This document shows positions 1-48,595 of a stretch of 55,106 nucleotides of DNA, one piece after another. The stretch is taken from assembly GCF_943736985.1 (NCBI RefSeq), contig NZ_CALSFS010000004.1:1-55106 (forward strand), written 5' to 3'. Positions within the stretch are counted from its first letter, which is position 1. Every line of letters starts with the position of its first letter. The translations under genes were made by a program, and so were the position numbers. This DNA comes from Clostridium sp. Marseille-Q2269 (GTDB lineage Bacteria; Bacillota; Clostridia; Clostridiales; Clostridiaceae). The notes below the pieces were generated by a model. It saw only the letters and a program-made list of their open reading frames with translations. It did no database searches and was not told where the DNA came from.

Positions 1-740
1 GGGCCAGTATTTCCAGTAGGACCAGTAACTCCAGTAATACCCTGAGGACCTGTATCCCCAGTAGATCCAGTAACTCCAGTGACACCTTGAGGACCAGTAT
101 TTCCAGTAGGACCGGTAACTCCAGTAATACCCTGAGGGCCAGTAACACCAGTAGCACCAGTAACTCCTTGAGGGCCTGTATTGCCAGTAGGACCAGTTAC
201 TCCAGTAATCCCTTGAGCACCAGTAGCCCCTCTAGGCCCCGTAATACCTCTAATGCCTTGAGCACCGGTAGTTCCTCTAGGTCCGGTAATACCTCTAATA
301 CCCTGAGCACCAGTAGCACCTCTAGGTCCGGTAATACCTCTAATACCCTGAACCCCAGCAGCGCCTCTAGGTCCAGTAATACCTTGAGGTCCAGTAACCC
401 CCGTAGCTCCAGTAATACCCTGAGGGCCAGAATCACCAGTAGGACCGGTAACTCCAGTAATCCCTTGAGGGCCTGTATTGCCAGTAGATCCAGTAACTCC
501 AGTGATACCTTGAGGGCCAGTATTGCCAGTAGGACCAGTGACTCCAGTAATACCCTGAGGGCCTGTATTGCCAGTAGATCCAGTAACTCCAGTGACACCT
601 TGAGGACCAATATTCCCAGTAATACCTCGTGGTCCAGTAGTTCCTGTTGAACCTGTAATTCCTCTAGGACCTGTTGGTCCAGGTGGACAGGTGCATTTAC
701 TACAACTTGGCACAAACATAATTTTATGTTTATAATCCAA
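1..740 (-). CDS. collagen-like exosporium glycoprotein (BclA-type), 3' end outside window
   Basis: Read on the minus strand, the gene opens with a short Cys-containing head ending in [14 protein letters not shown]. From about residue 21 it is Gly-X-X triplets (Gly-Pro-Gln/Arg-Gly-Ile/Val-Thr) right to the window edge, so the C-terminal domain is missing. The likely start is TTG at 740, seven nucleotides or so after the AAGGTGAT ribosome site. The next in-frame ATG, at 719, has no good site. The gene at 2481-3455 has the same leader geometry and the same TTG position. Collagen-like proteins of this architecture form the hair-like nap of bacillus and clostridial exosporia. The threonines are potential O-glycosylation sites, and a glycosyltransferase lies just upstream at 1152-2237. 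The family assignment is firm. The exosporium location is inferred from the family and the neighbours. Confidence 0.85.
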
Positions 741-811
741 ATAAATCACCTTCTATTTAAAGTAGTACATTGATAACCTACTTGATAAAAATTAATATAA
801 GATTATCAATA

Positions 812-840
812 TATGATATGAATAATTTTTTATATTTAGT
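812..840 (-). promoter_or_regulatory. candidate sigma-K promoter of the collagen-like gene at 1-740
   Basis: On the minus strand CATATCATA (820-812) matches the sigma-K -10 consensus CATANNNTA. An AC dinucleotide lies 18 nt upstream (840-839), near the expected -35 position. The identical nonamer precedes the glycosyltransferase at 2308-2300. Confidence 0.5.
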
Positions 841-1015
841 ATAATATTGCAATTTCTTTGCTTTATAAGGTATAAATAATTGAACAAATTTATTATGGAT
901 TCATAACAATAAGATAGAAGAATTGATGCATTTCATAGGAATTAAGATGCAAATTACTTTGAAAATAAATTTAGCATTACATTATGATATTTTATTGCAT
1001 ATAATAAAAAAAATA

Positions 1016-1070
1016 ATAACATTTATCCTATATAAATCAAATAAAATAAAAATTATAGGATAAACGTTAT
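1016..1070 (-). terminator. terminator after the glycosyltransferase
   Basis: Arms at 1016-1032 and 1054-1070 pair over 17 nt with one wobble (21-nt loop). On the minus strand the hairpin is followed by a T-rich run with eight consecutive T, fitting a rho-independent terminator for the gene at 1152-2237. Confidence 0.7.
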
Positions 1071-1151
1071 AATGATTTTAAATAATTATAAATTTTAATA
1101 ACATCGCTTATAATTAAAGAATTAATTTAAGCTAAGGTTGTATTCATAATG

Positions 1152-2237
1152 TTAATCAAACCCAATACTTTTGAAGAATTTTTTATTATTCAGTAAAGTT
1201 TGATTGTTAGGGGAATATGAGAGAGCTATTTCATTATGTTCATAAGATAGCTTTTTGTTTCCCTGTTTATAGTAGCAAACACAAAGTTGAACGTGAGGAA
1301 GCCATGTCCAACAGTCATCCCTAAAGAATCCCCAACTATTTTTGGGACGTTCTAATTTAGTAGCTAATTCATACCAAAATATTGCATTAGGTATTTTATT
1401 TTCATTCAAGAAATAACGACCTAATCTACAACAAAATTCAGCCCTTGGGGTATCATAATTAAATGAATAATAACAGTATTTTCTAGCGTTAAAAGGATCT
1501 TTTATATAATTATAGTAATCTGCTAGCTTACCGCAGGCAGTTATCTTATCTTCATACCATCCAGAATTCATTTGCAATAATTTTTTATATTGTTCTATAG
1601 CTTTTTCATATAATCTATGATCATATAATTCATTTCCATAATAAAATACATCTCTTGGAGAAAATTCATAGTTATCTTCTATCATTTTCTTATATATATT
1701 TAAATTTCTATCGGAATCACGAGGTTTTACTTTATCATGAACTATAGCTATATCACTATCAAATATATTACCATATACTTGTAAATAGTTATGAACTCTA
1801 CCATACCACTTGAAATTCTTTTCTCGTTTGACAAGTCTGTTTCTTCTATAGCTTAAAGCCGGTATACCATCTTTATCCAAATTCATATTATAGAACATAG
1901 TAACAGAATCAATGGATCTATCAAGATTAGATGTTAATTTTTTGAATTTTTCTTGATCTTCTTTTAAGATTATATCATCTGCATCTAAATAGAATATATA
2001 TTCTTTAGTAGCTTTGCTGAATGAATAATTTCTTGCTGCTGCGAAATCTTGTATCCATTCAAAATAATAAATTTTGTCCGTAAATTTTTGAGCAATTTCT
2101 TTTGTTTTATCAGTAGAGCCTGTATCTACGATTATAATCTCATCTACTAGATCTTTTGCACAATTTAGACACCTTTCCAACGTAAGTTCTTCATTTTTTA
2201 CAATCATACATAAACTTATAGTTATAGGTTTTCCCAA
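1152..2237 (-). CDS. family 2 glycosyltransferase with TPR-like C-terminal half
   Basis: The N-terminal 110 residues have the GT-A fold signature of family 2: SLCMIVKNEE, then EIIIVDTGSTDKT, then the metal-binding YLDADD near residue 86. The C-terminal 200 residues read as helical repeats (ALYEKAIEQYKKLLQMN-like, AIFWYELATK) of the TPR type. This layout is common in clostridial and bacillar peptide/protein glycosyltransferases, including the SunS-like group. The start is TTG at 2237, behind GGAGATGATAT. It has its own sigma-K-like box (2300-2327) and terminator (1016-1070). Lying between two Thr-rich collagen-like genes on the same strand, it probably glycosylates them. That substrate is inferred, and the sugar donor cannot be told from the sequence. 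Confidence 0.85.
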   Translation of the reverse strand: MGKPITISLCMIVKNEELTLERCLNCAKDLVDEIIIVDTGSTDKTKEIAQKFTDKIYYFEWIQDFAAARNYSFSKATKEYIFYLDADDIILKEDQEKFKKLTSNLDRSIDSVTMFYNMNLDKDGIPALSYRRNRLVKREKNFKWYGRVHNYLQVYGNIFDSDIAIVHDKVKPRDSDRNLNIYKKMIEDNYEFSPRDVFYYGNELYDHRLYEKAIEQYKKLLQMNSGWYEDKITACGKLADYYNYIKDPFNARKYCYYSFNYDTPRAEFCCRLGRYFLNENKIPNAIFWYELATKLERPKNSWGFFRDDCWTWLPHVQLCVCYYKQGNKKLSYEHNEIALSYSPNNQTLLNNKKFFKSIGFD

Positions 2238-2299
2238 AATATCATCTCCAAATATAATTATTTATTTTAGTATTCATTCATAACATAACTGTCTAATTT

Positions 2300-2327
2300 T
2301 ATGATATGAAATGTTTAAATATTACGT
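2300..2327 (-). promoter_or_regulatory. candidate sigma-K promoter of the glycosyltransferase
   Basis: Minus-strand CATATCATA (2308-2300) matches the sigma-K -10 consensus, with AC (2327-2326) 17 nt upstream as the -35. It lies about 60 nt before the TTG start. Confidence 0.55.
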
Positions 2328-2408
2328 TCTATAAAATTTTAAAGGAAAAAATCTAGGAATATAAAAAATAAATTTAGAATTTTTAAGTATATATTTTATT
2401 ATAAAGAC

Positions 2409-2438
2409 AAGGCTATCTCAAAATAATGAGATAGCCTT
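2409..2438 (-). terminator. hairpin terminator after the collagen-like gene at 2481-3455
   Basis: A perfect 12-bp stem (2409-2420 with 2427-2438) has a 6-nt loop. On the minus strand it lies 43 nt past the stop codon and is followed by a modest T-rich stretch. The stem resembles sequences often seen at insertion-sequence ends, but here it is a simple short hairpin. Confidence 0.65.
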
Positions 2439-2480
2439 ATTAATATCATAGGTGTATTGATTTATTATAAAAAAATATAT

Positions 2481-3455
2481 TTATCCTATTTTTATAAGTT
2501 GTACAGATGCTGTAACAGATCCAGATACACTAGCAGGTATAGTAAGTGGACTATTTATATTAAAAAGTTGTAAGATATCACCTGCAACAGCATTAAATAT
2601 GGAATGTCCCATAATTTGATCATCTGTTATATTACCGAAAGAGGAAAATGGAATTATACCAGATATACTTAATCGAGGCTGAATTATAACTCCTTGAGGA
2701 GTTGATACAGCTTTAGTTACTGTAAATATTAGTTCGTATTTACCTGTTTCATTAATTGTAATAGATGAACTACCAGCTGTGTGTGAAAAAGCAATAACAG
2801 GATCAATAAATCCAGCATTATTAAAAGATATTGCTTGGTTAGTGTCAATATCTTCATCTTCTGCAATTGTCCTAGTAACAAATGCAGAAGGTAATAATTG
2901 AGGACCAGTAGGTCCGGTTACACCAATAGGACCAGTAGGGCCAGTAGGTCCGGTTATACCAATAGGACCAGTAGGGCCAGTAGGTCCGGTTATACCAATA
3001 GGACCAGTAGCACCAGTAGGACCGGTTACACCAATAGGACCAGTAGGTCCGGTTATACCAATAGGACCAGTAGCACCAGTAGGACCGGTTACACCAATAG
3101 GACCAGTAGGTCCGGTTATACCAATAGGACCAGTAGCACCAGTAGGACCCGTTACACCAATAGGACCAGTAGGTCCGGTTATACCAATAGGACCAGTAGC
3201 ACCAGTAGGACCGGTTACACCAATAGGACCAGTAGCACCAGTAGAGCCGGTTACACCAATAGGGCCAGTAGCACCAGTAGGACCGGTTACACCAATAGGA
3301 CCAGTAGCACCAGTAGGACCGGTTACACCAATAGGGCCAGTAACACCAGTAGGACCGGTTACACCAATAGGGCCAGTTACACCAGTTGGACCAGGAGGGC
3401 AAGTACATCTACCACAGCTGCAACTTGGCATGCATATCATACATCTATTACTCAA
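2481..3455 (-). CDS. collagen-like exosporium glycoprotein (BclA-type), complete
   Basis: The 324-residue protein has three parts. A Cys-rich head (Cys at about 5, 8, 12, 14, 17 and 19) ends in [10 protein letters not shown] collagen-like region of about 55 Gly-X-Thr/Pro/Ile triplets runs from residue 22 to about 187. A C-terminal domain of about 137 residues carries beta-strand patterns like those of the BclA/C1q-TNF-like trimer head. The likely start is TTG at 3455, preceded by AAGGTGAT at good spacing. A GTG nine bases further upstream lies inside that ribosome site. The repeats are Thr-rich, hence potentially heavily O-glycosylated. A glycosyltransferase lies immediately downstream with its own promoter. 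The family role is surface filament or nap of the spore. The exosporium assignment is inferred, and no symbol is given because clostridial bcl paralogues cannot be told apart here. Confidence 0.88.
2900..3392. repeat. collagen-coding minisatellite (36-nt and 63-nt units)
   Basis: The triplet region is built of near-identical DNA units. A 12-residue unit ([12 protein letters not shown]) is repeated near the 5' end. A 21-residue unit ([21 protein letters not shown], in two halves) comes at least three times in the middle. Two copies of a 12-residue [12 protein letters not shown] unit close the array. Copy number is likely to vary between strains. Confidence 0.85.
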
Positions 3456-3529
3456 GCAAATCACCTTCCATTTAAATAATATAGTTATATTTTTAATAAT
3501 AAAGTCAGTTATATTGACATTATTATTAT

Positions 3530-3538
3530 TATTATATG
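3530..3538 (-). promoter_or_regulatory. candidate sigma-K -10 box of the collagen-like gene at 2481-3455
   Basis: Minus-strand CATATAATA matches CATANNNTA and lies about 75 nt before the TTG start. No clear AC is present at the expected -35 spacing, so the call is weaker than for the neighbouring genes. Confidence 0.35.
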
Positions 3539-3657
3539 ATGATTTTCTTTGTTTGACATAATTGTAAATGATCCTAGTATTAACATTTATATATAATGTA
3601 TAGAATTAGTATCAAAGCTTATTAAAATATAAATATATTATAGATTATAAGATTTAG

Positions 3658-3687
3658 TTACATTAAACAGATGTAAATCATATAATG
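3658..3687 (+). promoter_or_regulatory. weak sigma-K-like promoter of the Cys-rich gene
   Basis: CATATAATG at 3679-3687 differs from the sigma-K -10 consensus at the last base. An AC lies at 3660-3661, 17 nt upstream. A sigma-E reading of the same -10 lacks a matching -35. Confidence 0.3.
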
Positions 3688-3746
3688 TATTGACAACAAA
3701 TAAGCTGAATTAATAGTCTTAAATTTTTGAAAGGATGTTGAGATTT

Positions 3747-4331
3747 ATGCTATGCTGTAATGATAGAAAAAAACTACAAGAAAAATTAGAAGATTTATAC
3801 TGTAATGGCTGTGGCATGTGCATGTGTCAAGCTGCTACTACTTTATGTGATTGCTGTGTAGATCCTATGCAAGATTTATTAACTCAATTAAGAACTGTTT
3901 TACCAGCTACTGCAACAATTCAATTAACTTTGGATACTGGAGCTACTCAATCTTTTTTAGTAAGTCAAATAGTATCAATAGATGATAGTGTAATTAGTTT
4001 AAATATAAATGGTATTAATCAATTTATTTCAATTTGTAATATTTCAAGAGTTAGATGGACTGGTGCAGGGACAATAGCTTTAATTAATTTACTTCCACCA
4101 GTATGCACTTGTGACGAATGTGATTGTTATGAAAGACCACTAAGAGAAAGATTAAATAGATTAATAGGTAGTAATGTACAAGTACAGTTTGAAGGACAAT
4201 TAGATCCTAATGCTACTCAACCTATAACAATAAGAAAAGTTGGTCTTGGAATAGTTATAGGACAAAATATAACTGATGGTCTTGTAGATGCATTTTCAGT
4301 TTGTAAGATTACAAAATTTATTCAAGGTTAA
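3747..4331 (+). CDS. cysteine-rich candidate exosporium/coat protein
   Basis: The 194-residue soluble protein has about 17 cysteines in clusters: LCC at the start, CNGCGMCMC, LCDCC, and VCTCDECDC in the middle. Between and after the clusters come two similar beta-rich segments of about 60 residues (DPMQDLLTQLRTVLP onward, and RERLNRLIGSNVQVQFEG onward). Each ends in a hydrophobic-strand plus ICNISRV/VCKITKF motif, which recalls the small beta domains of CotB/DUF2642-type coat proteins. ATG 3747 is preferred because ATG 3735 lies inside the AAAGGA ribosome site, although the spacing to 3747 is long. Cysteine clusters of this kind cross-link spore surface layers. The exosporium role is inferred from composition and position, and the protein is not recognised by name. 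Confidence 0.7.
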   Translation: MLCCNDRKKLQEKLEDLYCNGCGMCMCQAATTLCDCCVDPMQDLLTQLRTVLPATATIQLTLDTGATQSFLVSQIVSIDDSVISLNINGINQFISICNISRVRWTGAGTIALINLLPPVCTCDECDCYERPLRERLNRLIGSNVQVQFEGQLDPNATQPITIRKVGLGIVIGQNITDGLVDAFSVCKITKFIQG

Positions 4332-4444
4332 ATATAAAGTTAAAAAATTTTTTGATAAAGTATATATTCCATTCAAATAAAATTGTAAAACTTAGATAAT
4401 AAAGCCTTCTTATATTTTATTAAATATAAGGTGTTAGATTGTTC

Positions 4445-4475
4445 AAGAACCCCATGTATTTGCATGGGGTTCTTT
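4445..4475. terminator. bidirectional terminator between convergent genes
   Basis: A 12-bp GC-containing stem (4445-4456 with 4463-4474) has a 6-nt loop and lies between the convergent genes ending at 4331 and 4539. It is followed by T-rich sequence on the plus strand. A weaker AT-rich hairpin lies at 4408-4430. Confidence 0.7.
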
Positions 4476-4538
4476 ATATAAATATTTAATTTATAATGTT
4501 AATTAATTATAATTTATATTAAGACTATGATTTAATAA

Positions 4539-6269
4539 TTATTTATAAGGTTTACCTAAAAGTCTTTCTAGAAAACTCTTATTTTTAGAGCATTCTAGTT
4601 CTTGCTTTATAAGTGAGTTTTCTGATTTTAATTCCTCTAGACTTGTTTCCAATTTTTGCGAATAATTTGTTATATACTCAAAACTTTTTTCTTTTTCTTC
4701 AAGTTGTTTTTTTATGTTGGAGGCTTCTATATCATATTGTGTTTTCAAGTCTTCTAAGATATTATGCTTAGATTTTTCTAATTTTTCTTTCAATTTATTA
4801 CTTTCTATTTTTAATTCTTTAACGATTTTCTCTAAATCTTTATTTTTATCAAGCAAATTTTCAAATTCTATTTCCTTATCTTTAAGTTGTTTTTTTATAC
4901 TTTCAACTTCAATAAAATATTTATTTTCAAGACTTTTTATAGTTTCAATATTTTGATTTTGAAATTTCTCCATCATACTATTTAGATTTTTATTTTTCTC
5001 TAATTCTTCATTTAATTTTTCTTTAAAATCCTTAGTCTGAATACTTAGTTTATTATTAGTTTCTAATGTGGATTTATATCTACTTTCAATATTGGATTTT
5101 TGTATAGAAATTTTATTTAGATTTTCAACAAGATTGTTAATACGAGTATTTTCTTCTTTTAATTTTTCTGTTAGCAATATAGTTTTATTTTTTAAATTAT
5201 AGTTTATAGCATTTCTCTCCGATATTTCTTGGAGTAATTTTCTTATAGTGCTTTCTGCATCACATTTATCATTATTTTTATTATTATATGTTTTAGTGAC
5301 TTTAGGTAAAAATACATTGATGGTATCAGATATAGAAGCAAATATATTTTTACTTTCTATAGATTTATCCCAAGGACTTTGTTCATAAACATATTTATAC
5401 ATATCTATATTATCAAAGGATTCAGTATAAATGTTAGATGGGGAAGACCATTTAGTATTGTTAAAGGAAGAATACATTAATTTATCATCTTCTAACCATA
5501 CACAGTACAATATATTATTGAATATAATAAATGTAGATTTATATATAGGAGTATTTGTTTGATAAATAGGGAAATTTACAATATTATTGCTATTATCTAT
5601 TTTTACATGTTCTAATGTATATATTTTATCTTCTTCAGACACATTTAAAATATTAAATTCTGTATCTTTTTTTATAGTAGAAAAATTAATATTGCCACCA
5701 TCTAATCTATATAACTTTTTATAGTCACACCACTTATTATTTAAATATTTACAAGAGTTAATCACGTTAGATCCCTTTTCTTTTGTTATGTAAAACATGG
5801 TAATATTATTATCTATTACTTCTAAATGGTAATGAGTTTCTACACTATTTATAGTATTTATAGGACCTATTATATTGGTATCAAATTTATTTCCATTCCA
5901 TACATAATGTAATATGTTACCCATAGAATCTGATCTGTTTTCATAGAACATAAAAAATATATGAAGTTTATTTTCCTTAGAAAATAATGTTACTTCATCT
6001 ATACGGTTATTATGGGATTTTAATTTATAGAGAGTTTGAACAGACCATTTTTTGTTGAATTTGCAGTATTTAATAAGGCCTTCAAAGGTTATACATACTA
6101 TTTCTATTATTCCTAGACTAGTTATATTTATATTAAATTTTGAAACGCCTTCTAGAATTTTTGTTTCTTCCTGAAATTTATTACACATTAATTCGTTATT
6201 TTTGTTAATATAAAATTCATACATATTACCATATATATTTTTGAAAATGTATGAGTTGTTAAAATTCAT
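4539..6269 (-). CDS. propeller-like domain fused to a long coiled coil, function unknown
   Basis: The 576-residue protein has no signal peptide or membrane segment. Residues 1 to about 320 contain repeated W-containing strands (HYVWNGNKFD, CKYLNNKWCDYKKLY, VWLEDDKLMYSSFNNTKWSSP), the pattern of sialidase- or tectonin-like beta-propeller blades. From about 335 to 565 the sequence is almost pure heptad coiled coil rich in Lys, Glu, Asn and Leu. Two similar sub-blocks occur there (IKKQLKDKEIEFENL and IKKQLEEKEKSFEYI). It ends in LERLLGKPYK. ATG 6269 is chosen because the upstream GTG at 6278 is part of the AGGTAGGTG ribosome site. It sits between Cys-rich and collagen-like genes and has a sigma-K-like box, so a spore-surface structural or adhesive role is a reasonable inference. 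No named family was recognised. Confidence 0.7.
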   Translation of the reverse strand: MNFNNSYIFKNIYGNMYEFYINKNNELMCNKFQEETKILEGVSKFNINITSLGIIEIVCITFEGLIKYCKFNKKWSVQTLYKLKSHNNRIDEVTLFSKENKLHIFFMFYENRSDSMGNILHYVWNGNKFDTNIIGPINTINSVETHYHLEVIDNNITMFYITKEKGSNVINSCKYLNNKWCDYKKLYRLDGGNINFSTIKKDTEFNILNVSEEDKIYTLEHVKIDNSNNIVNFPIYQTNTPIYKSTFIIFNNILYCVWLEDDKLMYSSFNNTKWSSPSNIYTESFDNIDMYKYVYEQSPWDKSIESKNIFASISDTINVFLPKVTKTYNNKNNDKCDAESTIRKLLQEISERNAINYNLKNKTILLTEKLKEENTRINNLVENLNKISIQKSNIESRYKSTLETNNKLSIQTKDFKEKLNEELEKNKNLNSMMEKFQNQNIETIKSLENKYFIEVESIKKQLKDKEIEFENLLDKNKDLEKIVKELKIESNKLKEKLEKSKHNILEDLKTQYDIEASNIKKQLEEKEKSFEYITNYSQKLETSLEELKSENSLIKQELECSKNKSFLERLLGKPYK

Positions 6270-6352
6270 AATATTCACCTACCTTTATAAAATTATATTA
6301 ATAACAAGTTTCTTATATTCTTTTAATAGTAAAATATTACTAAAAATCTATT

Positions 6353-6377
6353 TAATTTATGCAAAAATTATATTAGT
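6353..6377 (-). promoter_or_regulatory. candidate sigma-K promoter of the propeller/coiled-coil gene
   Basis: Minus-strand CATAAATTA (6361-6353) fits CATANNNTA. The nearest AC (6377-6376) is only 14 nt upstream, shorter than ideal. Confidence 0.4.
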
Positions 6378-6397
6378 AAAATATATTTTAACTAATC

Positions 6398-6425
6398 ACA
6401 CTTATTTTTTTATATGCATACTATA
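6398..6425 (+). promoter_or_regulatory. candidate sigma-K promoter of the CsxA-like gene
   Basis: CATACTATA at 6417-6425 matches CATANNNTA exactly. AC at 6398-6399 is 17 nt upstream. The distance to the ATG at 6476 gives a leader of about 45 nt containing AGGAGG. Confidence 0.55.
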
Positions 6426-6475
6426 TATTGAGATAAAACAATGTTTCTTCTATATGAAAAAGGAGGATATTTTAT

Positions 6476-7342
6476 ATGGCTATTAATTCAAAAGATTTTA
6501 TTCCACGTCCAGGTTTTGTAAATAAACAAGGATGTTTACCAGATCCAGTGGAGATATGTTGTATTCAAGTACCTAAAGTTTTTGATCAATGTTTAAAAAA
6601 GGAATGCTTAAAACCAACAGATGATTGTGAACAATTATGTATGCAAATACCAAATATTACAGATCCATCACAGGTTAGATGTGTAGGATGCTGTGATGAT
6701 TTTACAGTAGTTGTTAATTCTGTTACTAAATGTCCTGTTGCAAATGGTAGAACTGGCTATAAGAAAGTAACTATTAATTATACAGTTACTTTTAATGTGG
6801 ATGTAGATGTAGAAATAAATGGCGTAATACAAACACAAACATTAACTTATTCAGTAAATAGAACTATAACTGCTGGCAACTTATATTGTCCAGACACTAT
6901 AGCTAAAACTGTAATAGGTAGAGAATGTACATCAGCAGAAGAAATCGACCAACAGTTTATAAAACTAGAAATCGTAGGAGATTGTTTAAGCACAGACATT
7001 TCTAAGGTAGATTGTGGTGGTTGTGGTTGCAGTTGTACTTGCCCAGATGATCCTACAGATCAAAAAGTATTCTTATGTGTTACACTAGGATTATTTATAA
7101 TAATCAAATGCGAAATAGTGGTTCAATTAATGGTTCCAGCTTATGGCTATTGCCCAGTACCAGATGAATGTGATTGCTCAGAGGATCCATGCAAAGACTT
7201 TATGGAAAGAGAACTTCCAACTTTATATCCACCACAAATAATGGATAATTTATTTGATGATTGTGATGATAACGATCATTGTTATGATAATAAATCCAGT
7301 AAAGAAGATGTAGATGAAGGTACTCTAATAGCTAGTAACTAA
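6476..7342 (+). CDS. cysteine-rich exosporium protein, CsxA-like
   Basis: The 288-residue acidic protein has more than 25 cysteines, many paired or clustered (EICCIQV, CVGCC, CGGCGCSCTCPDD, CDCSEDPCKD). A central beta-rich segment (residues about 80-170, TVVVNSVTKC to LEIVGDC) has the alternating Thr/Val pattern of a beta sandwich. Hydrophobic strands follow at about 198-225. The tail is Asp-rich. The start is ATG 6476, eight nt after AGGAGG. Size, composition and position beside collagen-like genes resemble CsxA, the self-assembling basal-layer protein of the C. sporogenes exosporium. That match is from memory of the family and not from an alignment, so no symbol is given. If correct, it forms a disulfide-linked hexagonal array to which the collagen-like proteins attach. 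Confidence 0.7.
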   Translation: MAINSKDFIPRPGFVNKQGCLPDPVEICCIQVPKVFDQCLKKECLKPTDDCEQLCMQIPNITDPSQVRCVGCCDDFTVVVNSVTKCPVANGRTGYKKVTINYTVTFNVDVDVEINGVIQTQTLTYSVNRTITAGNLYCPDTIAKTVIGRECTSAEEIDQQFIKLEIVGDCLSTDISKVDCGGCGCSCTCPDDPTDQKVFLCVTLGLFIIIKCEIVVQLMVPAYGYCPVPDECDCSEDPCKDFMERELPTLYPPQIMDNLFDDCDDNDHCYDNKSSKEDVDEGTLIASN

Positions 7343-7419
7343 TTTGTAATTTAAGAATAATATGAAAATTATTTTTAAAAGTTTATCGTATTAATTTATA
7401 AATTAAATATGATAGTTGT

Positions 7420-7510
7420 AAGAAAAGGAATATTGAATATGTATGCTTTTTATAGAAAGGTATATTATGACTTCGATCCCTATATAGGGATTCGGAGTCT
7501 TTCCATTTAT
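7420..7510 (+). terminator. terminator of the CsxA-like gene, apparently a decayed T-box leader
   Basis: The hairpin at 7469-7499 (CTTCGATCCCTATATAGGG and onward) is followed by TTTCC and then T-rich sequence. It is nearly base-for-base like the terminator of the proS T-box at 18817-18845. The preceding 45 nt (ATGCTTTTTATAGAAAGG at its core) resemble the start of that same leader (18630-18677). The middle, including specifier loop and T-box sequence, is absent. It presumably now acts only as the terminator of the gene ending at 7342. Confidence 0.55.
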
Positions 7511-7542
7511 GTTTTTTTCATGAGATTACTTTGATCAAATAG

Positions 7543-7719
7543 ATTTTCTTTGTTGTTTTATGGTTAATTGAAATTAGAAAAGCAACTATAGATAAGAAGA
7601 GTGTTGTATGTGATTATAAGATGTACTTAGGTGATATTGATAAAAAAAGAGTTGTATATGAATATAAAATAAAAGGGTCTGTGGCACTAAGAATAAATGC
7701 TACAATGATATTGTGTTAA
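7543..7719 (+). pseudogene. possible decayed coding fragment
   Basis: An open stretch of 58 codons after a stop begins with a hydrophobic run (IFFVVLWLI). It continues with two similar DKK-x-VV-x-(D/E)YK segments and ends at TAA 7717-7719. It has no start codon with a ribosome site and runs into the inverted-repeat element at 7662. No family was recognised, and it may be chance. Confidence 0.2.
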
Positions 7720-7785
7720 CTTTAAACTGTAAAACAATATATTGTGCTTAAATTCTTTAATGGGACAGCCCCTTTTATTTTATAT
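7662..7785. mobile_element. MITE-like element or insertion-sequence remnant
   Basis: Arms at 7662-7682 and 7765-7785 are inverted copies of 21 nt with a single mismatch. Similarity of the ends continues inward with a few changes (GGGTCTGTGGCACTAA against GGGGCTGTCCCATTAA). The 82-nt interior codes for nothing recognisable. Long inverted ends starting GGGGCTGTCCCA are typical of insertion-sequence termini. No clear target duplication was seen. It could also act as a hairpin terminator for the minus-strand gene ending at 7788. Confidence 0.5.
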
Positions 7786-7787
7786 AT

Positions 7788-8489
7788 TTAGATTGCTACT
7801 TTTTTAACTCTTTTAAGTTGATCTTTATTATATTTTAATATTCTTAAAATTGTGTATAACATAAATATAGTTGAGTACGTAGAAATATTAATCCAATTCA
7901 TAGACTTTATTCCTATAATCATTATATGAAGATATGTTAAAAAGTAAAATATATAAGACTTTTTCTGAAGTTTTTTCCAACTATAAGCACTCATTTTACG
8001 TCTTATCTTTTTGAAGGAAGTTATAAATAAAGGAATCATTAATATAAGACCTATTAAGCCAGTAATAACTATTCCTAAATAAGCCATAGATCCAGAGGGA
8101 TTGGACATGACTTTTTTAAATGAAAATAAAAAGAATTTAATAGTATATATTATTCCATGAGGTAATAACAGAATTGAAGCTATTATAGCTAGTTCTGCTC
8201 TCATTTTCAGCAGCTTCTTTGTGAAAGAGTAGTTTGTGCTTAATGCCCCAGCATACATTACTAAAATAAAAAATGATACTGAAATGATTCCCTTTATTGA
8301 TGTCTTCTCAAGATAATAAATAAACCCACTTAGTTTTGTTCCATGAACCATTTTAAAAGTTTCATAGATAATGGTTATAATTGATATTAAGCCTGCTAGA
8401 CTATAGAAAATTTTGCTGTACTTTGTTATGTTTTTGGAAAAAATTATAGAAAAGATTATCACTGATATAAAAGAATAAATTAATAACAT
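7788..8489 (-). CDS. ferric-reductase-like (MsrQ/YedZ-type) membrane protein
   Basis: The 233-residue protein has about six membrane segments and almost no soluble part. The segment SAYSWKKLQKKSYIFYFLTYLHIMIIG carries the Trp-Lys-x-Leu-x-x-x-x-Tyr pattern and a membrane His typical of the ferric-reductase-like transmembrane domain. A second His lies in LLPHGIIY. These could ligate heme. No FAD/NADPH domain is present, as in the MsrQ/YedZ group, and no MsrP partner is in the window. It stands alone and is preceded on its own strand by AAAGGAGTG close to the ATG. Electron-transfer function is inferred from the motif only. Confidence 0.55.
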   Translation of the reverse strand: MLLIYSFISVIIFSIIFSKNITKYSKIFYSLAGLISIITIIYETFKMVHGTKLSGFIYYLEKTSIKGIISVSFFILVMYAGALSTNYSFTKKLLKMRAELAIIASILLLPHGIIYTIKFFLFSFKKVMSNPSGSMAYLGIVITGLIGLILMIPLFITSFKKIRRKMSAYSWKKLQKKSYIFYFLTYLHIMIIGIKSMNWINISTYSTIFMLYTILRILKYNKDQLKRVKKVAI

Positions 8490-8849
8490 ATGGACACTCC
8501 TTTATGAAAAATATTTTAAGTAAAACTGATATTGGTTATAATATAAATTTTTATATATAAACCAAAAATAAATTGAAATTAATAATTAAATAGAAATGAT
8601 ATTCATTATCGATTAAAATTGTAATATAAATTTTTATAAAAGTCAATAGACATTTATTTGATCAAATGGGAAATGAATTTATAAAAATAGTAGCATTATG
8701 AAGGAATAAATATATAGATTTTAATTATAGTGACTATATGGGTTTTATTATTATTATTTTAAAACCTATATTGTAACAAGTTTCAGTTTTATTCATAAAA
8801 TATAATTGATAACTGTTTAATCAGGAACAAGAATATGAGGAGGTTCCTA
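8490..8849. other. divergent intergenic region
   Basis: This AT-rich spacer lies between divergent genes. It carries the sigma-K-like promoter at 8776-8802 and a short inverted pattern around 8741-8775 (TATGGGTTTTA / TAAAACCTATA). No further gene was seen. Confidence 0.5.
8776..8802 (+). promoter_or_regulatory. candidate sigma-K promoter of the lectin-like repeat gene
   Basis: AC at 8776-8777, 16 nt spacing, then CATAAAATA at 8794-8802. This is the best match to the sigma-K consensus in the window, about 48 nt before the start codon. Confidence 0.6.
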
Positions 8850-9896
8850 ATGTATTATAATAATCCATTTTTTTATGTTGCTCCATATTATATGGATGAC
8901 CCTAATTATCACCAATTTAATTATCCATTTATACAGGATCAAATGATGAGAGGTTTTGATGATTTAGAAGATTACGATGATTATGAAGAATACGATGAAG
9001 TTGAAGATGATGACTTTTTTTATGAAGATGATGATCTTCAAGATACCAGATCTTTTGATAGACAGATAAACATAAATCCCCCTGGCGGTGGATGGAGTAG
9101 ATGGGAAGATCTTGGAGGAAATATAACTTCTGCGCCAGCAGCAGCTTCATGGGGAAGAAATAGGATAGACACCTTTGCTAGAGGAACAGATAATGCCCTT
9201 TGGCATAAATGGTGGAACGGGTCTCGCTGGAGTGACTGGGAAAGTCTTGGTGGAAGAATAACTTCTGCACCAGCAGCAGTATCTTGGGGTCCTAATAGGA
9301 TTGATGTGTTTGCTAGAGGAACAGATAATGCTATGTGGCATATATTCTGGAATGGTTCTCGTTGGAGCGATTGGGAAAGTCTTGGTGGAAATATAAGTTC
9401 TGCACCAGCAGCAGCTTCATGGGGAAGAAATAGAATAGACACTTTTGCTAGAGGAACAGATAATGGTCTTTGGCATAAATGGTGGAATGGTTCTCGTTGG
9501 AGTGATTGGGAAAGATTAGGTGGAAGATTAACATCTTCACCAGCAGCAGTATCCTGGGGTCCTAATAGAATTGATGTATTTGCACGAGGAATGCAAAATC
9601 GTTTATATCATCTATGGTGGAACGGATCTCGTTGGAGTAACTGGGAAGATCTAGGTGGAAGACTAACTTCTGGTCCAGCAGTGTCCTCTAGAGGCCCTAA
9701 TAGATTAGAAGTATTTGCTAGAGGAGCAAATAATCAATTAATGACCAGAGCTTGGGAAAGATCCCGTTGGAGTAACTGGAGAAATCTAGCAGGAAATATA
9801 ACCTCTGATCCAGCTGCAGTATCCTGGGGACCAAACAGGACAGACGTATTTGCCAGAGGAAGGAATAATGCAATGTGGCACATATTTAGAAATTAA
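8850..9896 (+). CDS. PLL/DUF346-type lectin-like beta-propeller repeat protein
   Basis: The 348-residue protein has three parts. A Tyr/Phe/Pro-rich head covers about the first 30 residues. A very acidic segment follows at about 35-65. Six repeats of about 46 residues make up the rest, each with W-S-x-W-x-x-LGG, then an [13 protein letters not shown] motif, then NxxWHxxWNGSRW. These repeats match the PLL-type (fucose/O-methyl-sugar-binding) propeller and DUF346 pattern. Repeats alternate in two flavours ([13 protein letters not shown] and [13 protein letters not shown]), implying duplication of a two-repeat unit. ATG 8850 is preferred because AGGAGG at 8838-8843 lies six nt before it, whereas ATG 8835 sits in front of that site. 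There is no signal peptide. A sigma-K-like promoter suggests a spore-surface sugar-binding protein; this is inferred. Confidence 0.8.
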
Positions 9897-18599: not shown

Positions 18600-18850
18600 T
18601 ATTTAAAAATTATATAAATTTATAGCAAAGAAGAGGAATAGTAGATTCCTATGCTTTTTACAGAGAAGGATGTAAGATGAGAATTCCTAAAAGCTAAGTT
18701 TTGAACCAGCCTCAGAGTTCTGTACTGAAATTTAAGTAGGATACAGCGGAAAAATTCCGTTATCAATAAAAGTGAGCATATTTTATATGTTAACAAGGGT
18801 GGTACCACCGGCATAACTTCGGTCCCTGTCTAGGGATTAGGAGTTTTTTT
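18600..18850 (+). promoter_or_regulatory. T-box leader controlling proS (tRNA-Pro responsive)
   Basis: Stem I begins at GAGGAATAGTAG. The conserved T-box AGGGTGGTACCACCG is at 18796-18810. The competing terminator (18815-18845, ending in a seven-T run) lies before the gene. The antiterminator bulge TGGT would pair with a tRNA ending in A-CCA. The segment GAACCAG (about 18700) puts CCA in a plausible specifier position for proline, though the loop was not folded rigorously. Confidence 0.88.
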
Positions 18851-35398: not shown

Positions 35399-35645
35399 CT
35401 ACTTATGGAGAGGCGCTGTAATTATTAGTATTTATTCTTAGTCGGCGGACTGTGAGGAATAAAGAAAGGGATTATGGCCGAAGGAAGAAGTTTTGCAAAA
35501 ATTTTTCCTGGCTTTGCATAGAATATATGTAAGGCTGTCACTTGAAAAAAGTGGAGAGCTGCATAGGTACACAGACGTTGCATATTATTTATGTTTATTT
35601 AAATAATGCAGCAAAGGTGTTCCTTTGTTGCATTATTTTTTTATA
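35399..35645 (+). promoter_or_regulatory. lysine riboswitch (L box) with attenuator
   Basis: The core has the L-box elements in order: GGAGAGGCGCTG (from about 35407), TTAGTCGGCGGACTG, GGCCGAAGGAAG (about 35477), GGCTGTCACTTG (about 35533) and GTGGAGAGCTGCATAGGT. The expression platform is a 16-bp hairpin (35602-35617 with 35622-35637) ending in seven or more T. GTTGCATATTATTT at 35577-35590 can pair with the terminator's left arm to form an antiterminator. Lysine binding should favour termination before lysC-lysA. Confidence 0.92.
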
Positions 35646-38471: not shown

Positions 38472-41400
38472 ATGACAGTATTTATACCTATTTTTGTTTG
38501 TATAATTTTAATGATTTTAATATATATAATTTATAAAAATAACAATAGTAAAGGAAATTTAATAGATGATATAAACAATATATTTTTTAGCGAAGATAAA
38601 CAAGATTTAGAACAATTTGTAGAAGATATATCAGAATTTCATGGTATAGTATCTAACAGAAAATGTAGAAAATTAGTGTTGGAGAGTTTAGATAAAAGTT
38701 ATGAGAGAATAATGGAAAATTATAAATACATAGTATCACTGGATGAAGATATAAATATGACTGTACCTGCAGGAGAATGGTTGCTAGATAATATATATCT
38801 TATAGAAAAACAATATAAAGATATAAAAAAGAATATGCCATTTTCATATTATGTAAAATTACCTGTTATAAATAAAGGCATAATGAAATGTTATCCCAGA
38901 GTATATCATTTAGCTTTAGCTATAATACATAATTTTTACGGAAATATGGATAAAGAATTTATAATAACCTTTATAAATAAATATGAAAAAAACAATGTTT
39001 TAACTAGTTCAGAAATATGGGCATTACCTATAATGCTAAGAATATCTTTAATACAAAAGATATCTATAATATCAGAAGAGATAGCGTATATACAAAGAGA
39101 AAGAAAAAGAGGAGAAAAATTAGCAGATAAAATAATTAGAGACTACAATAATAAAAACCTAGATAGAACTATTAATGAATTAAAAAATAATGGCATAAGA
39201 ATTAGTCCTTATTTCATGGAAACATTTATAAATATACTAAATGACAATGGAATAAAAGAGAAAAATTTAGATTTATTTATACAAGAGCAATTGGATATAA
39301 AAGAAAAAAATATAGATAATATAATAAGTTCAGGATATAGAAAGCAATCTAAACAGCAGATAGTTATGGGGGATTGTATAAATGGATTAAGAAATGTAGA
39401 ATCTATTAATTGGAAAAATGTATTTGAGAATGTTAGTATAATCGAAAAGATATTAAAAGAAGATCCTTTAAAAGTTTATAATGATATGGACTTTCCATCT
39501 AAAAATTTTTATAGAAATAAAATAGAGAGATTATCAAGAAAATTAAGGCTTCCTGAAAGTTATATAGCAAAAAAGAGCATAGAATGTGCAGAACAGTTTG
39601 AAGCTAAAAATAAAGAAGAATTTTATAAAAAACATGTTGGATATTATATAGTTGAAGAAAAAGGGGCTAGAATACTTAGAAAATCTTTAAGTATAAAAAA
39701 CAAAGGAAAAGATAAAATAAAAGATTTTCTAATTAGAAATAAAGTTAGATCTTATATAAGCAGCATAGTAATTTTTACACTAATATTTGAATTTTTTATT
39801 ATAAAATCTATAGGATATAACAACATATATATTATGTTGTTACAATTTGTAATACTTTTAATACCAAGTAGTGAAATAATAATATCAATTCTAAATTGGA
39901 GTTTGAATAATTTAACTAAACCTAATTTTATACCCAAGTTGCAGCTTAGGGATGGAATAGATGATAAAGCTTCAACAGTTGTTGTAATACCTACATTAAT
40001 AGGAAGTATAAAAAGAGCAAAAGAATTGATAAAAGATATGGAAGTACATTATTTAGCTAATAAAGAAAATAATCTTTATTTTGCTATACTAGGAGATTTT
40101 AAAGACAGTAAAAATGAAAAAGAAGAAAATGATGAAGAAATAGTAAGAGAAATGTTAAAAGAAGTAGAGAGATTAAATAATAAATATTGCAAAGGCAAGG
40201 AAGAAATTTTTTTCTTTTTAAATAGATGTAGAAAATATAATAATAAAGAGAAAAAATGGATGGGATGGGAAAGAAAAAGAGGAAAATTAGAGGAATTTAA
40301 CAAGCTCGTACGTGGAGAAGAAGATACTAGCTATAATGTTATAAGTGGAAATATAAAAACTTTGAGAAATGTTAAATACGTAATAACATTGGATGCAGAT
40401 ACAAAGCTTCCAAGAGATGTGGCTAAAAGATTAATAGGTGCCATGGAACATCCACTTAACAAACCCATAATAGATAAAGTAAAAAAAGTAGTTTGTCATG
40501 GGTATGGACTTATGCAGCCTAGAATTAGTATAGGAGTAGAAGATGCTAGTAGGACCATGTTTTCAAAGATTTTTTCTGGAGAAGTAGGTTTAGATACCTA
40601 TACTACAGCTGTATCAGATATTTATCAAGATTTGTTTAAAGAAGGTATATTCACAGGAAAAGGAATATATCATGTAGATACTTTTAATATGATGCTTGAT
40701 GGAGAAATAAAAGAAAATTCTGTTCTGAGTCATGATTTATTAGAAGGGTCTTATGTTAGAACTGCTTTAGTTACTGATATACAATTAGTTGATGGATACC
40801 CTGCTTACTATAATTCAAGTTGTAAAAGAATACACAGATGGGTAAGGGGCGACTGGCAGCTTATACCATGGATATTTAAAAGGACAGCTATAAATAGATT
40901 ATCTAAGTGGAAAATAGTGGATAATTTACGAAGGAGTCTTTTAGCACCTTCTATAATTACCCTTATATTATTTTCTCTTATTATATATTATGGAACTAAT
41001 GAGATGATAATTGTAGCTTTCCTTTCCATAATTGCACCTATATTGTTTAATGTTTCAGAGGTTATTGTGTTGCCAACTAAAGGTATAGGGCTATCTGGAA
41101 GAATATATAGCGTAAAAAATGTACTAAAGCAGTTCTTTTTAATTTTTGCTTTTATTCCTCATAAAGCATATTTAATGAGAGATGCAATAATGAGAACTTT
41201 ATATAGGCTTTGTGTAAGTAAAAGAAATTTATTAGAATGGCAAACTGCAGAAGATGCTGAAAAAATGTCACGCAAAGATTTCTATGGATATATAAAGAAC
41301 ATGTGGGTAGGCAGCCTAATTGCTGTAATTATACTGTATTTATCCATAAGAAGATCTAATGAACTGGCTATATTTCTTGTCCCAACTTGCATAGTGTGGT

Positions 41401-42116
41401 TTATTAGTCCTTATATAGCTTTTTATGTAAGTAAGGATAAGAAAGATAAATTATATTTAGATAAATATGATAGAAGTTTATTATTTAATATAGCTAGAAG
41501 AACTTGGTCATACTTTGATGATTTTGTTTGTGAAGATACCAAATGGTTAGCTCCAGACAATTATCAGGAAGAACCCTATAAGGGTATAGCTTATAGAACA
41601 TCCCCTACAAATATGGGAATGGGGATAACCTCAAATATTGCAGCCTATGATTTAGGTTTTATAACATTAAAAAATGTTACCAATCGCTTGGGAAATATAC
41701 TATCTAGCATGGAAACTTTAGATAAATATAATGGGCATTTTTATAATTGGTATGATATAAAAACTGCTAAGCCATTAAATCCTAGATATATATCTGCAGT
41801 AGATAGTGGAAATCTGGTAGGGTATTTATGGCTTACAGAAGAATCATTAAAAGATATATTAAAGAGACCATTATTGATGAAAAAAAATATTGACGGATTA
41901 ATAAGCTTATTAGAGTTAGCAGATGAAGAACTAAAAAAAGAAGAAGACATAGATAACTTTTATATAAATATAATATTTATACTAAATAAAGCTGAACCAG
42001 ATATTGTGTTTTTCAACAATATGATTTTAAAAATATTAAATAAGCAAAGGCAGTTATCCGATTTTAATTTAGATATAAATAAACTTATTGGAATAAAAAA
42101 CTGTCTGATTTTTTAA
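38472..42116 (+). CDS. N-terminal part of the NdvB-like protein: GT84 glycosyltransferase
   Basis: This ORF has 1214 codons. A membrane anchor (residues 3-21) precedes a helical region (about 40-400) and two membrane segments (about 422-470). The glycosyltransferase domain has VVVIPTLIGSIKRAKEL, ITLDADTKLPRDVAKRL near 640, HGYGLMQPRIS and HRWVRGDWQLIPW near 790. Further membrane segments lie at about 820-955. A glucoamylase-like domain begins at RTWSYFDDFVCEDTKWLAPDN and NMGMGITSNIAAYDLG. In cyclic beta-1,2-glucan synthases the GT84 part makes the chain from UDP-glucose. ATG 38472 follows AAGGAAAGGATG. It is truncated by the shift at 42095-42100. Confidence 0.82.
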   Translation: MTVFIPIFVCIILMILIYIIYKNNNSKGNLIDDINNIFFSEDKQDLEQFVEDISEFHGIVSNRKCRKLVLESLDKSYERIMENYKYIVSLDEDINMTVPAGEWLLDNIYLIEKQYKDIKKNMPFSYYVKLPVINKGIMKCYPRVYHLALAIIHNFYGNMDKEFIITFINKYEKNNVLTSSEIWALPIMLRISLIQKISIISEEIAYIQRERKRGEKLADKIIRDYNNKNLDRTINELKNNGIRISPYFMETFINILNDNGIKEKNLDLFIQEQLDIKEKNIDNIISSGYRKQSKQQIVMGDCINGLRNVESINWKNVFENVSIIEKILKEDPLKVYNDMDFPSKNFYRNKIERLSRKLRLPESYIAKKSIECAEQFEAKNKEEFYKKHVGYYIVEEKGARILRKSLSIKNKGKDKIKDFLIRNKVRSYISSIVIFTLIFEFFIIKSIGYNNIYIMLLQFVILLIPSSEIIISILNWSLNNLTKPNFIPKLQLRDGIDDKASTVVVIPTLIGSIKRAKELIKDMEVHYLANKENNLYFAILGDFKDSKNEKEENDEEIVREMLKEVERLNNKYCKGKEEIFFFLNRCRKYNNKEKKWMGWERKRGKLEEFNKLVRGEEDTSYNVISGNIKTLRNVKYVITLDADTKLPRDVAKRLIGAMEHPLNKPIIDKVKKVVCHGYGLMQPRISIGVEDASRTMFSKIFSGEVGLDTYTTAVSDIYQDLFKEGIFTGKGIYHVDTFNMMLDGEIKENSVLSHDLLEGSYVRTALVTDIQLVDGYPAYYNSSCKRIHRWVRGDWQLIPWIFKRTAINRLSKWKIVDNLRRSLLAPSIITLILFSLIIYYGTNEMIIVAFLSIIAPILFNVSEVIVLPTKGIGLSGRIYSVKNVLKQFFLIFAFIPHKAYLMRDAIMRTLYRLCVSKRNLLEWQTAEDAEKMSRKDFYGYIKNMWVGSLIAVIILYLSIRRSNELAIFLVPTCIVWFISPYIAFYVSKDKKDKLYLDKYDRSLLFNIARRTWSYFDDFVCEDTKWLAPDNYQEEPYKGIAYRTSPTNMGMGITSNIAAYDLGFITLKNVTNRLGNILSSMETLDKYNGHFYNWYDIKTAKPLNPRYISAVDSGNLVGYLWLTEESLKDILKRPLLMKKNIDGLISLLELADEELKKEEDIDNFYINIIFILNKAEPDIVFFNNMILKILNKQRQLSDFNLDINKLIGIKNCLIF

Positions 42117-42132
42117 ATGAATCTCTTAATGA

Positions 42133-45100
42133 ATTCAAAATATTCCTTGGAAAGAGCAAATAATAGAAAATATAGGTATATGCAAAGATGTCATAGAAGA
42201 AATAAGAGATTTTGTTGTAAAAGTACCTATAGAAGAAATACCATATAGAATAAAATACATCATTGATAAATTAGAACAAATAAAAACAGATCAGAGCTAC
42301 GAAAAAGAATGGATTTTAAATTTAATAAATAATTTAAATATTAGTGGTGAAAACATTAAAAAATTAATAAAAGATATAGATAATATAAATATAAGATTAT
42401 ATAAACTAGCAGAAGATACAGATTTTAAAATTCTATATGATAAAGATAGAAATTTATTTACTATAGGATTTAATGTAGACTCAGGAGAAATAGCCAATTC
42501 TTATTATGATTTATTAGCTTCAGAAGCTAGGCAAGCAAGTTTTGTTGCTATAGCCAAAGGCGATATACCACAAGATAACTGGATAGCATTAGGTAGAGCT
42601 ATGACTTATATGGGGAAAAAATTAAAAGGGTTAGCTTCATGGAGTGGGACTATGTTTGAATATTTTATGCCTCTATTAATAATGAAGAACTATGAAAATA
42701 CTTTATTAGATCAAACATATAAATCAGTAGTAAAAGGACAACAACTATATGTTAAAAATAAGAATATACCTTGGGGAATATCAGAATCTGCATATTATCA
42801 TTTTGATGGAGATAAAAACTATCAATATATGGCTTTTGGAGTACCTGGTATAGGAATAAAAAGAGGATTGTCTAAAGATCTAGTTATAGCCCCATATTCT
42901 TCTTTGTTAGCTTTACAAAAAGATGTAAATGGAAGTATAAAAAATATAAATAGATTAATAGATGATGAGCTCTTAGCTAGATATGGATTTTACGAAGCAG
43001 TAGATTATACTAAAAACAGAATACCAAAAGGAAAGAGTAGATGTATTATTAAATCTTTTATGGTACATCATCAGGGAATGAGCCTTATGGCTTTAAATAA
43101 TGTTGTAAACGATAATATATTTCAAAGAAGGTTTCATAACAAATCAGAAGTTAAAGCTACAGAATTGTTATTACAAGAGAGAAAAACTAATAGGATTATA
43201 TATAATAGGAGTATTAAAAAATATAATACAGAATGTAAGGTTGATACTGTTGATCAGTATAGTAGAATTTATAACACAGCTAAAACTGACATACCTAGAG
43301 TAGCATTAATATCTAATGGTAATTATTCTTTAATGATCACTAACAGAGGTGGAGGGTATGGCAAAAAAGACAATACTACTATTTATAGATGGAGAGAGGA
43401 CTTAACATCGGATTCTAAAGGGTTGTTTTTCTATATAAAAAATATAAATTCTAATAATTATTGGAGTGCTACTTATGAGCCTTGTAAATTTGAAGGTAAA
43501 AATTACAAAGCTCAATTTGCTAGTGATAAAATTACTTTTTCAAGACAAGATGGTAATATAATAACAGAAACTAATGCTACAGTTTCCCAAGAAGAAGATG
43601 CAGAAATAAGGAGTATAAATTTAAAAAATAATAGTGATAATGATAGAGTCATAGAAATAACTAGTTATTGTGAAGTAACACTGGCAAATTATAATGCAGA
43701 TTTAGTTCATCCAAGTTATAGTAATTTATTTGTAAAAACGGAATTAGAAGAAGAGCCATTTTGTATTCTAGCTAATAGAAGAAGAAGAAGTGAGAATGAT
43801 GAATCTCCTTGGATAATGCAGACTGTAGCTGTAGACGGTGATCAAATTGGTGGATTTGAATATGAAACTAGTAGAATAGATTTTATAGGAAGAGGAAGAA
43901 ATTTATATAATCCCAAAGCTATGGATAGTGATACTAATCTTAAAAAATCTATAGGACCAGTTTTAGATCCAATCATAAGCATAAGAATTAGAGTAAAATT
44001 AAAGGGTAAGTCCAATTGTACAGTAGCATATACAACTGCTTTTTGCAGTTCTAAAGATGAAGGATTAAAAATAGCAGAAAAATATAGAAATATACGTAAT
44101 GTAAGAAATGCCTTTGATTTATCTTGGAATCACAGTAACTTAGAAATGAAAAATTTAGGCATTAGATCTACTGCGGCTAATATGTATCAGTATATTGCAT
44201 CTAATATATTGTTTATAAATGGAAATATGAAAGAAAGAGTACAATATATAAAATCAATAAATTTAGGTCAATCAAATTTATGGGTTTACGGAATATCAGG
44301 AGATAATCCTATAATTTTAGCTACTTTAGATGAGGAAGCAGGAATAGATATAGTAAGGCAACTATTAATGGCTTATAGATATTGGAAAATGAAAAATATA
44401 AATGTAGATTTAGTAATAGTTAATACTAAGGAAAGCTCGTATATACAGCCTGTAGAAGATTCCATATTAAATTTAATAAATAGTATAGGATTGATGAGCA
44501 ATATAAATAAATCATCAGGAATATTTTTATTTAACAAATCTACTATGAGTGAAACAGATTTAGAGCTTTTAAAAGCTATATGTAGATTATATATAGATTG
44601 TAATAAAGGATCTCTAGCAGAACAGATAAATATATGTAGTAATAAAAAAGAAGAGATAGATTTGTTAGAGAAAAAAGAATTACAATATAATCCTAAATAT
44701 TATAAATTGACAATTCCCAAATTAGAGTATTTTAATGATATAGGTGGATTTGATATAGAAAACAATGAATATACAATATTATTAAAGGATTATAATAACA
44801 CACCATTACCATGGATAAACGTAATGTCTAATGGTAAATTTGGATTCCATGTATCAGAAAGTGGTTCATCTTATAGCTGGTATAAAAACAGCAGGGAAAA
44901 CAAGTTGACTAATTGGTGCAATGATCCAGTAATAGATGGAGAGAGTGAACATATTTACGTAAGAGATGAAGAATCAGGGGAAATATGGAGTATTACCCCT
45001 AAACCTGTAAGGGATTCTGGTCAGTATATAATAAGTCATGGATTTGGATATTCTAATTTTAAACATTATGCTAAAGGCATAATTGGGGAGGTTATAAACT

Positions 45101-48522: not shown

Positions 48523-48595
48523 ATATTTAAAATAATTTTAATTTATTAATTTTGAGTATTAAAAATTAATTTTAAAATTTTTATATTTATATTTA

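Follow-up and report, generated by a model that had tools for sequence, protein, structure and literature searches.

A csxA-type exosporium locus of Clostridium sp. Marseille-Q2269 with two putative promoter classes and a candidate partner for CsxA

A 55,106-nucleotide stretch from Clostridium sp. Marseille-Q2269 (contig NZ_CALSFS010000004.1; hereafter the window) begins with what appears to be an exosporium locus of csxA type, whose genes are preceded by two classes of predicted promoter. The reading we favour, with a probability of roughly 0.7, is that the gene divergent from csxA is expressed first, and that its product, here called PCC (a propeller-like head, a coiled-coil stalk and a conserved basic C-terminal tail), would serve as nucleator or tether for a CsxA lattice made under sigma-K. 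This reading draws on homology, gene order, co-occurrence and conserved elements. The identity of the sigma factors, the order of expression, the role of PCC and the spore location of a lectin encoded nearby are what we infer. A preliminary description had placed seven genes of spore-surface type in this interval, and each was found where it had been put: CLR1, a glycosyltransferase gene, CLR2, a gene for a Cys-rich protein, PCC, csxA (head to head with PCC) and a DUF346 gene. At an E-value of 0.001, Pfam matches were obtained for the collagen repeats of two genes, for GT2 and for DUF346, and none for the other three.

CsxA, PCC and their pairing

The csxA gene (6476..7342, + strand) encodes a homologue of 288 amino acids (aa) with 27 Cys, predicted to form the lattice of the basal layer by comparison with the CsxA described in excerpts of PMC7333573 and PMC4942563. 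The published protein has 299 aa and 25 Cys (PMC4942563) and is reported as essential for the clostridial exosporium (PMC7333573). Our comparison sample comprised 206 genomes of the family of C. akagii, in which the best match to the window's ProRS is 83%. CsxA matches were found in 71 of them at E 0.001, and C. akagii itself, listed among the species with CsxA/CsxB homologues (PMC4942563), has a single match at 42%. Searches with CsxA found no match among plasmids and none among solved structures, and a pattern scan of genome contigs returned 36 matches, none of them a relative. In the excerpted account of C. sporogenes, the csxA cluster holds three collagen-like genes, a glycosyltransferase gene, a Cys-rich open reading frame (ORF) and, transcribed divergently from csxA, a "highly conserved ORF" (PMC7333573). 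Homology and gene order against this cluster bear out the earlier view of the interval as an exosporium locus. Distant csxA homologues need not share the zapA-U32 peptidase address (PMC7333573). Four fetched loci (L120, L121, L122 and L132) have csxA between ZapA and U32 peptidase genes by Pfam, and there too csxA and a PCC homologue stand head to head; in the window, csxA is not between these genes and is followed by an ABC transporter gene and a SulP-like gene (names assigned by eye). A collagen-like ORF lies near csxA in 11 of the relatives' 58 loci and a glycosyltransferase gene in 6.

The gene paired with csxA in the window, PCC (4539..6278, - strand), probably starts at ATG 6269. In 50 of the 58 fetched csxA loci, a divergent PCC homologue is found no more than 600 bp from a csxA; among the other eight, five are second csxA loci with the pair elsewhere in the genome, two begin at contig ends and one has a gap of 1,185 bp. 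Counted by genome, PCC is present in 55/55 of those with a clear csxA match, mostly head to head, and in 58/71 of those with any match, the count of 55 omitting 16 genomes with a csxA E-value above 1e-20 and retaining one, G115, with csxA fragments at contig ends. For two genomes with clear csxA outside the 20-kb fetched loci (G069 and G085), the match coordinates place PCC divergent beside csxA. Altogether 62 of the 206 genomes have a PCC match, 4 of them without csxA. csxA itself is often duplicated, with 84 copies in 58 loci (L114-L173), sometimes flanking one PCC gene on both sides.

PCC homologues were collected by requiring at least 350 aa and an E-value of no more than 1e-10, and 30 members (the window's and 29 of 50 ORFs) were aligned. 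In the alignment, a head of some 320 residues is followed by a coiled coil that varies in length and by a short basic motif at the C-terminus; this motif is retained in nearly all members, L162 being an exception, and four of the five invariant columns of the alignment fall within the head. Inside the head, a unit of about 50 aa recurs (best off-diagonal match probability 87%). Neither Pfam nor NCBIfam gave it a family name, the matches of PCC there being scattered and mostly to coiled coils, and the six matches of the PCC profile in the PDB all lie within the stalk region. From its internal repeats and sequence pattern, the head is likely to be a beta-propeller, a label that is unproved. A single-sequence AlphaFold model of PCC had a mean predicted local distance difference test score (pLDDT) of 49 and was not used.

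By its position, we take PCC to be the "highly conserved ORF" of PMC7333573. The preliminary description had spoken of two undescribed propeller proteins. One of them proved to be a homologue of PLL/DUF346 lectins, whose gene is remote from csxA in relatives. The second, PCC, does lack a family name, although an ORF had already been drawn at its position in the excerpted part of PMC7333573. In searches of the open-licence literature, including PMC7333573, PMC4942563, PMC8775613 and PMC11076785, neither the PCC family nor its co-occurrence with csxA turned up, and neither did a csxA promoter or a PLL lectin of clostridial spores. This kind of cluster has been described in C. sporogenes, and PCC as the constant companion of csxA has been little noticed. 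In six loci (L117, L127, L128, L129, L130 and L133) another gene, of about 430-490 aa, adjoins PCC on the same strand; several of them begin with a ISNLGNNTITIID-like sequence, and the two of the six that were scanned had no Pfam match above the cut-off.

Promoter classes across the locus

The preliminary description had linked the seven genes through boxes fitting CATANNNTA. All six boxes are exact (812-820, 2300-2308, 3530-3538 and 6353-6361 on the - strand; 6417-6425 and 8794-8802 on the + strand), and the one-off variant at 3679 is CATATAATG, with AC at 17 nt. AC also stands at 16-18 nt from four of the six, as had been noted (glycosyltransferase 17, csxA 17, DUF346 16, CLR1 18; AC-box spacings counted by eye on the sequences). 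Over the window as a whole the motif shows no enrichment (76 boxes; 95.5 +/- 10.7 in shuffles). Positions 1-9896 contain 22 boxes and the remaining 45 kb contain 54 (2.2 versus 1.2 per kb, binomial p=0.013). The motif is concentrated ahead of the seven genes: a box lies within 100 nt upstream of 6/7 genes and of 1/29 other genes (Fisher 2.4e-5; 4/29 of the others within 200 nt), and AC at 15-18 nt plus box, with A or G as last base, precedes 5/7 and 0/29, respectively; none of 2000 shuffles equalled either 6/7 or 5/7. The 29 comparison genes were ORFs hand-picked from the window with uncurated starts, and since the seven genes were selected by an earlier reader, the p-values carry that selection. 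As background for motif density, the 45 kb flanking the locus in the window and 394 control ORFs took the place of the whole genome.

In C. difficile, sigma-E and sigma-K promoters share the same -10 and differ at -35, which is ATA for sigma-E and AC for sigma-K (excerpts of PMC3789822). In other genomes, AC-N15-17-CATANNNTR occurs in 69/84 regions upstream of csxA, versus 2.3 (max 7) in 300 shuffles and 12/394 control ORFs from the same loci (at least 200 aa, fewer than 10 Cys, no spore protein of the window as a match; each taken from its first start codon). Another 11/84 have no box, and in 4/84 the box lacks both AC and ATA at that spacing; L118 and L119, the contig ends of G115, were excluded from this set. 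Among DUF346 homologues, AC-spaced CATANNNTR was found in 26/43 (0.8, max 4, in shuffles), after 7/50 loci without a start and ribosome site had been dropped; among the 43 starts retained, a few are uncertain. A joint matrix was then built from 51 non-redundant sites of other genomes (35 csxA, 16 DUF346), the window excluded, and used to rank 110,212 positions. The csxA box (6417) came first with 25.1 and the DUF346 box (8794) second with 24.9, the third position scoring 12.8; the boxes of the Cys-rich gene (3679), glycosyltransferase gene, CLR1, CLR2 and PCC ranked 6, 22, 46, 91 and 769.

A -35 AC followed at 16-17 nt by a -10 of type CATANNNTA is found upstream of csxA (AC-N17-CATACTATA, 6398..6425, + strand), the DUF346 gene (AC-N16-CATAAAATA, 8776..8802, + strand) and the Cys-rich gene (AC-N17-CATATAATG, 3660..3687, + strand, with G as last base), and is absent upstream of PCC and CLR2. 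The predicted sigma-K signature is strong for csxA and DUF346; that of the Cys-rich gene is fair to good. The signature is moderate for the glycosyltransferase gene, with a CATATCATA box at 2300..2308 (- strand). CLR1 has a weak sigma-K-like CATATCATA box at 812..820 (- strand), and the CATATAATA box of CLR2 (3530..3538, - strand), without AC at 16-18 nt, is not convincing.

The DUF346 gene (8850..9896, + strand; PF03984) encodes 348 aa, an acidic N-terminus followed by six 45-aa repeats; its start, earlier placed at 8835, is corrected to 8850 from homologues. PLL is seven-bladed. By sequence and model, the protein is a PLL-type lectin homologue: it matches PLL2 in phmmer (E 7.5e-98) and the PLL/PHL lectins in Foldseek (E 9.7e-23, 47% identity, template-modelling score 0.69, from a single-sequence model of mean pLDDT 67). 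Matches occur in 56/206 genomes, with up to 84-85% identity over the propeller, and we read it as a lectin gene of sigma-K type that probably belongs to spores. We put even odds on its being an unrelated neighbour that carries a sigma-K-type promoter and has no part in the CsxA exosporium. Across the 206 genomes, DUF346 and csxA show no association (71 with csxA, 56 with DUF346, 23 common, Fisher p=0.25; clear matches alone, 16 common, p=0.73); of the 16 genomes with clear matches to both, 11 have the two genes on different contigs and 5 have them 600 kb or more apart, and in the window a ferric-reductase-like gene intervenes. Against such independence stand the near-ideal box and G115, where the DUF346 gene, too, has a PCC homologue in its vicinity, about 4.3 kb away with a SulP gene between them; SulP is also downstream in the window. 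The intervening gene, an eighth in the interval, encodes a membrane protein (7788-8489) and has no upstream box. The DUF346 mRNA leader (8803-8849 in the window, and in homologues) is strikingly conserved; by eye, a small stem-loop with compensatory substitutions seemed to precede the ribosome site, and it was rejected when RNAalifold returned no consensus pair.

Upstream of PCC, a different element is conserved. ATA-N16-18-ATATAAW, defined after viewing the sequences, occurs in 38/50 homologues against 5.3 (max 12) in shuffles; when the search is confined to the 60 nt before the start, with the ATA at 16-17 nt, it occurs in 30/50 (shuffles 1.2, max 6). The window's copy, ATA-N17-ATATAAT at 6292..6318 (- strand), ranks first with a matrix made from the homologues in other genomes and is 63 nt away from the box at 6361. 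It retains the ATA and the 16-18 nt spacing of the sigma-E type, with ATATAAT as -10 in place of a CATA-type one, and we regard sigma-E as its closest class, as a lead and not as proof.

Several points weigh against the two-class reading. Both relaxed patterns were fixed after the homologues had been viewed, the last base being widened from A to A/G; the strict CATANNNTA lies upstream of 44/85 csxA genes, window included (2.45, max 9, in 200 shuffles), and of 12/44 DUF346 genes, window included. Upstream-region and co-occurrence counts are uncorrected for phylogeny. The csxA and DUF346 training sites belong to orthologues of the tested genes, so that part of the score is orthology, and training on single families was run to limit this effect. 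After csxA-only training, the DUF346 box still ranked 2, followed by the boxes of the Cys-rich gene (just 29th), CLR1 (75), CLR2 (270), the glycosyltransferase gene (just 303rd) and PCC (489); after DUF346-only training, the Cys-rich box ranked 2, the glycosyltransferase box 22, the csxA box just 31st, CLR2 69 and CLR1 521. The signature is weak for both collagen-like genes. The window's CsxA is tied to the published C. sporogenes protein indirectly, via relatives, so that its identity with that protein is one step removed. The PCC matrix was built on 10 non-redundant sites, and the window site at 6318-6292 leads narrowly, with 18.6 against 17.3 for the next. In C. acetobutylicum, sigma-K acts at initiation too (excerpts of PMC8102284), which blurs timing and makes the proposed order an inference. 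Finally, the sigma-A hexamer TATAAT lies within ATATAAT, which would allow PCC to be transcribed by sigma-A. Transcription of PCC by the housekeeping factor, outside sporulation control and with the conserved ATA incidental, nevertheless seems unlikely to us: the consensus of 24 non-redundant sequences has no TTGACA-like -35, the ATA stands at 16-17 nt far more often than in shuffles when sought within 60 nt of the start, and the gene is constantly paired with one for the spore coat.

Less likely still is the single sigma-K regulon of the preliminary description, in which all seven genes are transcribed together: the counts of boxes (6/7) and of AC plus box (5/7) and the listing of bclA1-3 in the C. 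difficile sigma-K regulon (excerpts of PMC3789822) speak for it, and against it stand the low ranks of the CLR1, CLR2 and PCC boxes, the different conserved element of PCC, and the PCC homologues, of which just 2/50 have AC plus box (0.6, max 3, in shuffles) and 16/50 CATANNNTR of any sort. The box at 6361 was rejected as PCC promoter at its rank of 769. What survives of the common regulon is csxA and DUF346, with the Cys-rich gene and, less firmly, the glycosyltransferase gene; the collagen-like genes fit it weakly and PCC is unsupported. As the conserved element of PCC is of the ATA type, a two-step mother-cell programme is the more likely arrangement.

A possible order of assembly

Under the two-step reading, PCC would be made first, early in the mother cell, from its sigma-E-like promoter. 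CsxA, the Cys-rich protein and probably the glycosyltransferase would follow later under sigma-K; the collagen-like proteins, whose predicted promoters are weak, may be late too. CsxA is predicted to self-assemble into a hexagonal, disulphide-linked basal layer, with PCC as the nucleator or tether on which this sigma-K-made lattice is laid. The collagen-like proteins, by analogy with C. sporogenes, would form a hairy nap glycosylated by the GT2 enzyme.

Present in all 55 genomes with clear csxA and preceded by a promoter of an earlier type, PCC offers a specific candidate for the morphogenetic protein that would nucleate or anchor the CsxA lattice. A broader proposal can be put forward tentatively, at somewhat less than even chances: that PCC stands for a hitherto undescribed protein family, the obligate assembly partner of CsxA across Clostridiaceae, made earlier from the same divergent intergenic region, and that the sigma-K PLL-type lectin is a spore-surface adhesin of many clostridia. 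If this were true, the length of the PCC stalk might determine how far the exosporium stands from the coat, and many clostridial spores would owe a sugar-binding surface to the lectin.

Other genes of the window and comparison with known systems

CLR1 (3..749, - strand) encodes a collagen-like repeat protein with tandem repeats (PF01391, E 2.4e-38) whose 3' end lies beyond the window edge. The glycosyltransferase (1152..2237, - strand) joins a GT2 domain (PF00535, E 1.7e-22) to TPR repeats, and its relatives are 45-58% identical (best 80 of 581). CLR2 (2481..3464, - strand) is collagen-like (PF01391, E 4.8e-25), and its C-terminus weakly resembles BclA_C (PF18573, E 1.9e-4). The leaders of CLR1 and CLR2 (about 750 and 3465) both have GAAGGTGATTT directly before the start, which suggests duplication or common translational control. 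The Cys-rich protein (3735..4331, + strand), recognised as an ORF of 198 aa with 15 Cys, has matches in 5/206 genomes; its homologue in G115 is 66% identical over residues 1-88 and is preceded by a similar AC-N17-CATATAATA at the same spacing.

Farther downstream, two adjacent ORFs on the + strand (38472-42116, 1214 aa; 42601-47103, 1500 aa) were noted; the first has no Pfam match and the second has glycoamylase and GH94 domains, and together they resemble pieces of one cyclic-glucan-synthase-like protein. Positions 18619-18830, 35400-35569 and 48587-48813 correspond to two T-box leaders and one lysine riboswitch.

Four known systems bear comparison with the locus. With the promoters of C. difficile (excerpts of PMC3789822) it shares the -10 type and the -35 AC of sigma-K and ATA of sigma-E, whereas ATATAAT in the predicted PCC element has an A where CATA begins with C. 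With BclA of Bacillus, it shares collagen-like repeats and the weak BclA_C match in CLR2, although that match, at 21.7 bits, lies under the Pfam cut-off of 38 and CLR2 matches no solved structure. The Photorhabdus PLL/PHL lectins (PDB 6rfz, 5mxe and 5c9l) have in common with the DUF346 protein the DUF346-type repeats and, by the model, the PLL fold; the window protein differs in its six sequence repeats, acidic N-terminal extension and sigma-K-type promoter, and its sugar binding is putative. The closest counterpart is the csxA cluster of C. sporogenes and C. botulinum group I (excerpts of PMC7333573 and PMC4942563), which likewise combines CsxA, collagen-like genes, a glycosyltransferase, a Cys-rich ORF and a conserved divergent ORF. 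The window has two collagen-like genes instead of three, its edge cutting the cluster, stands away from the zapA-U32 peptidase address, and adds the ferric-reductase-like gene and the PLL-type lectin, followed by the ABC transporter and SulP.

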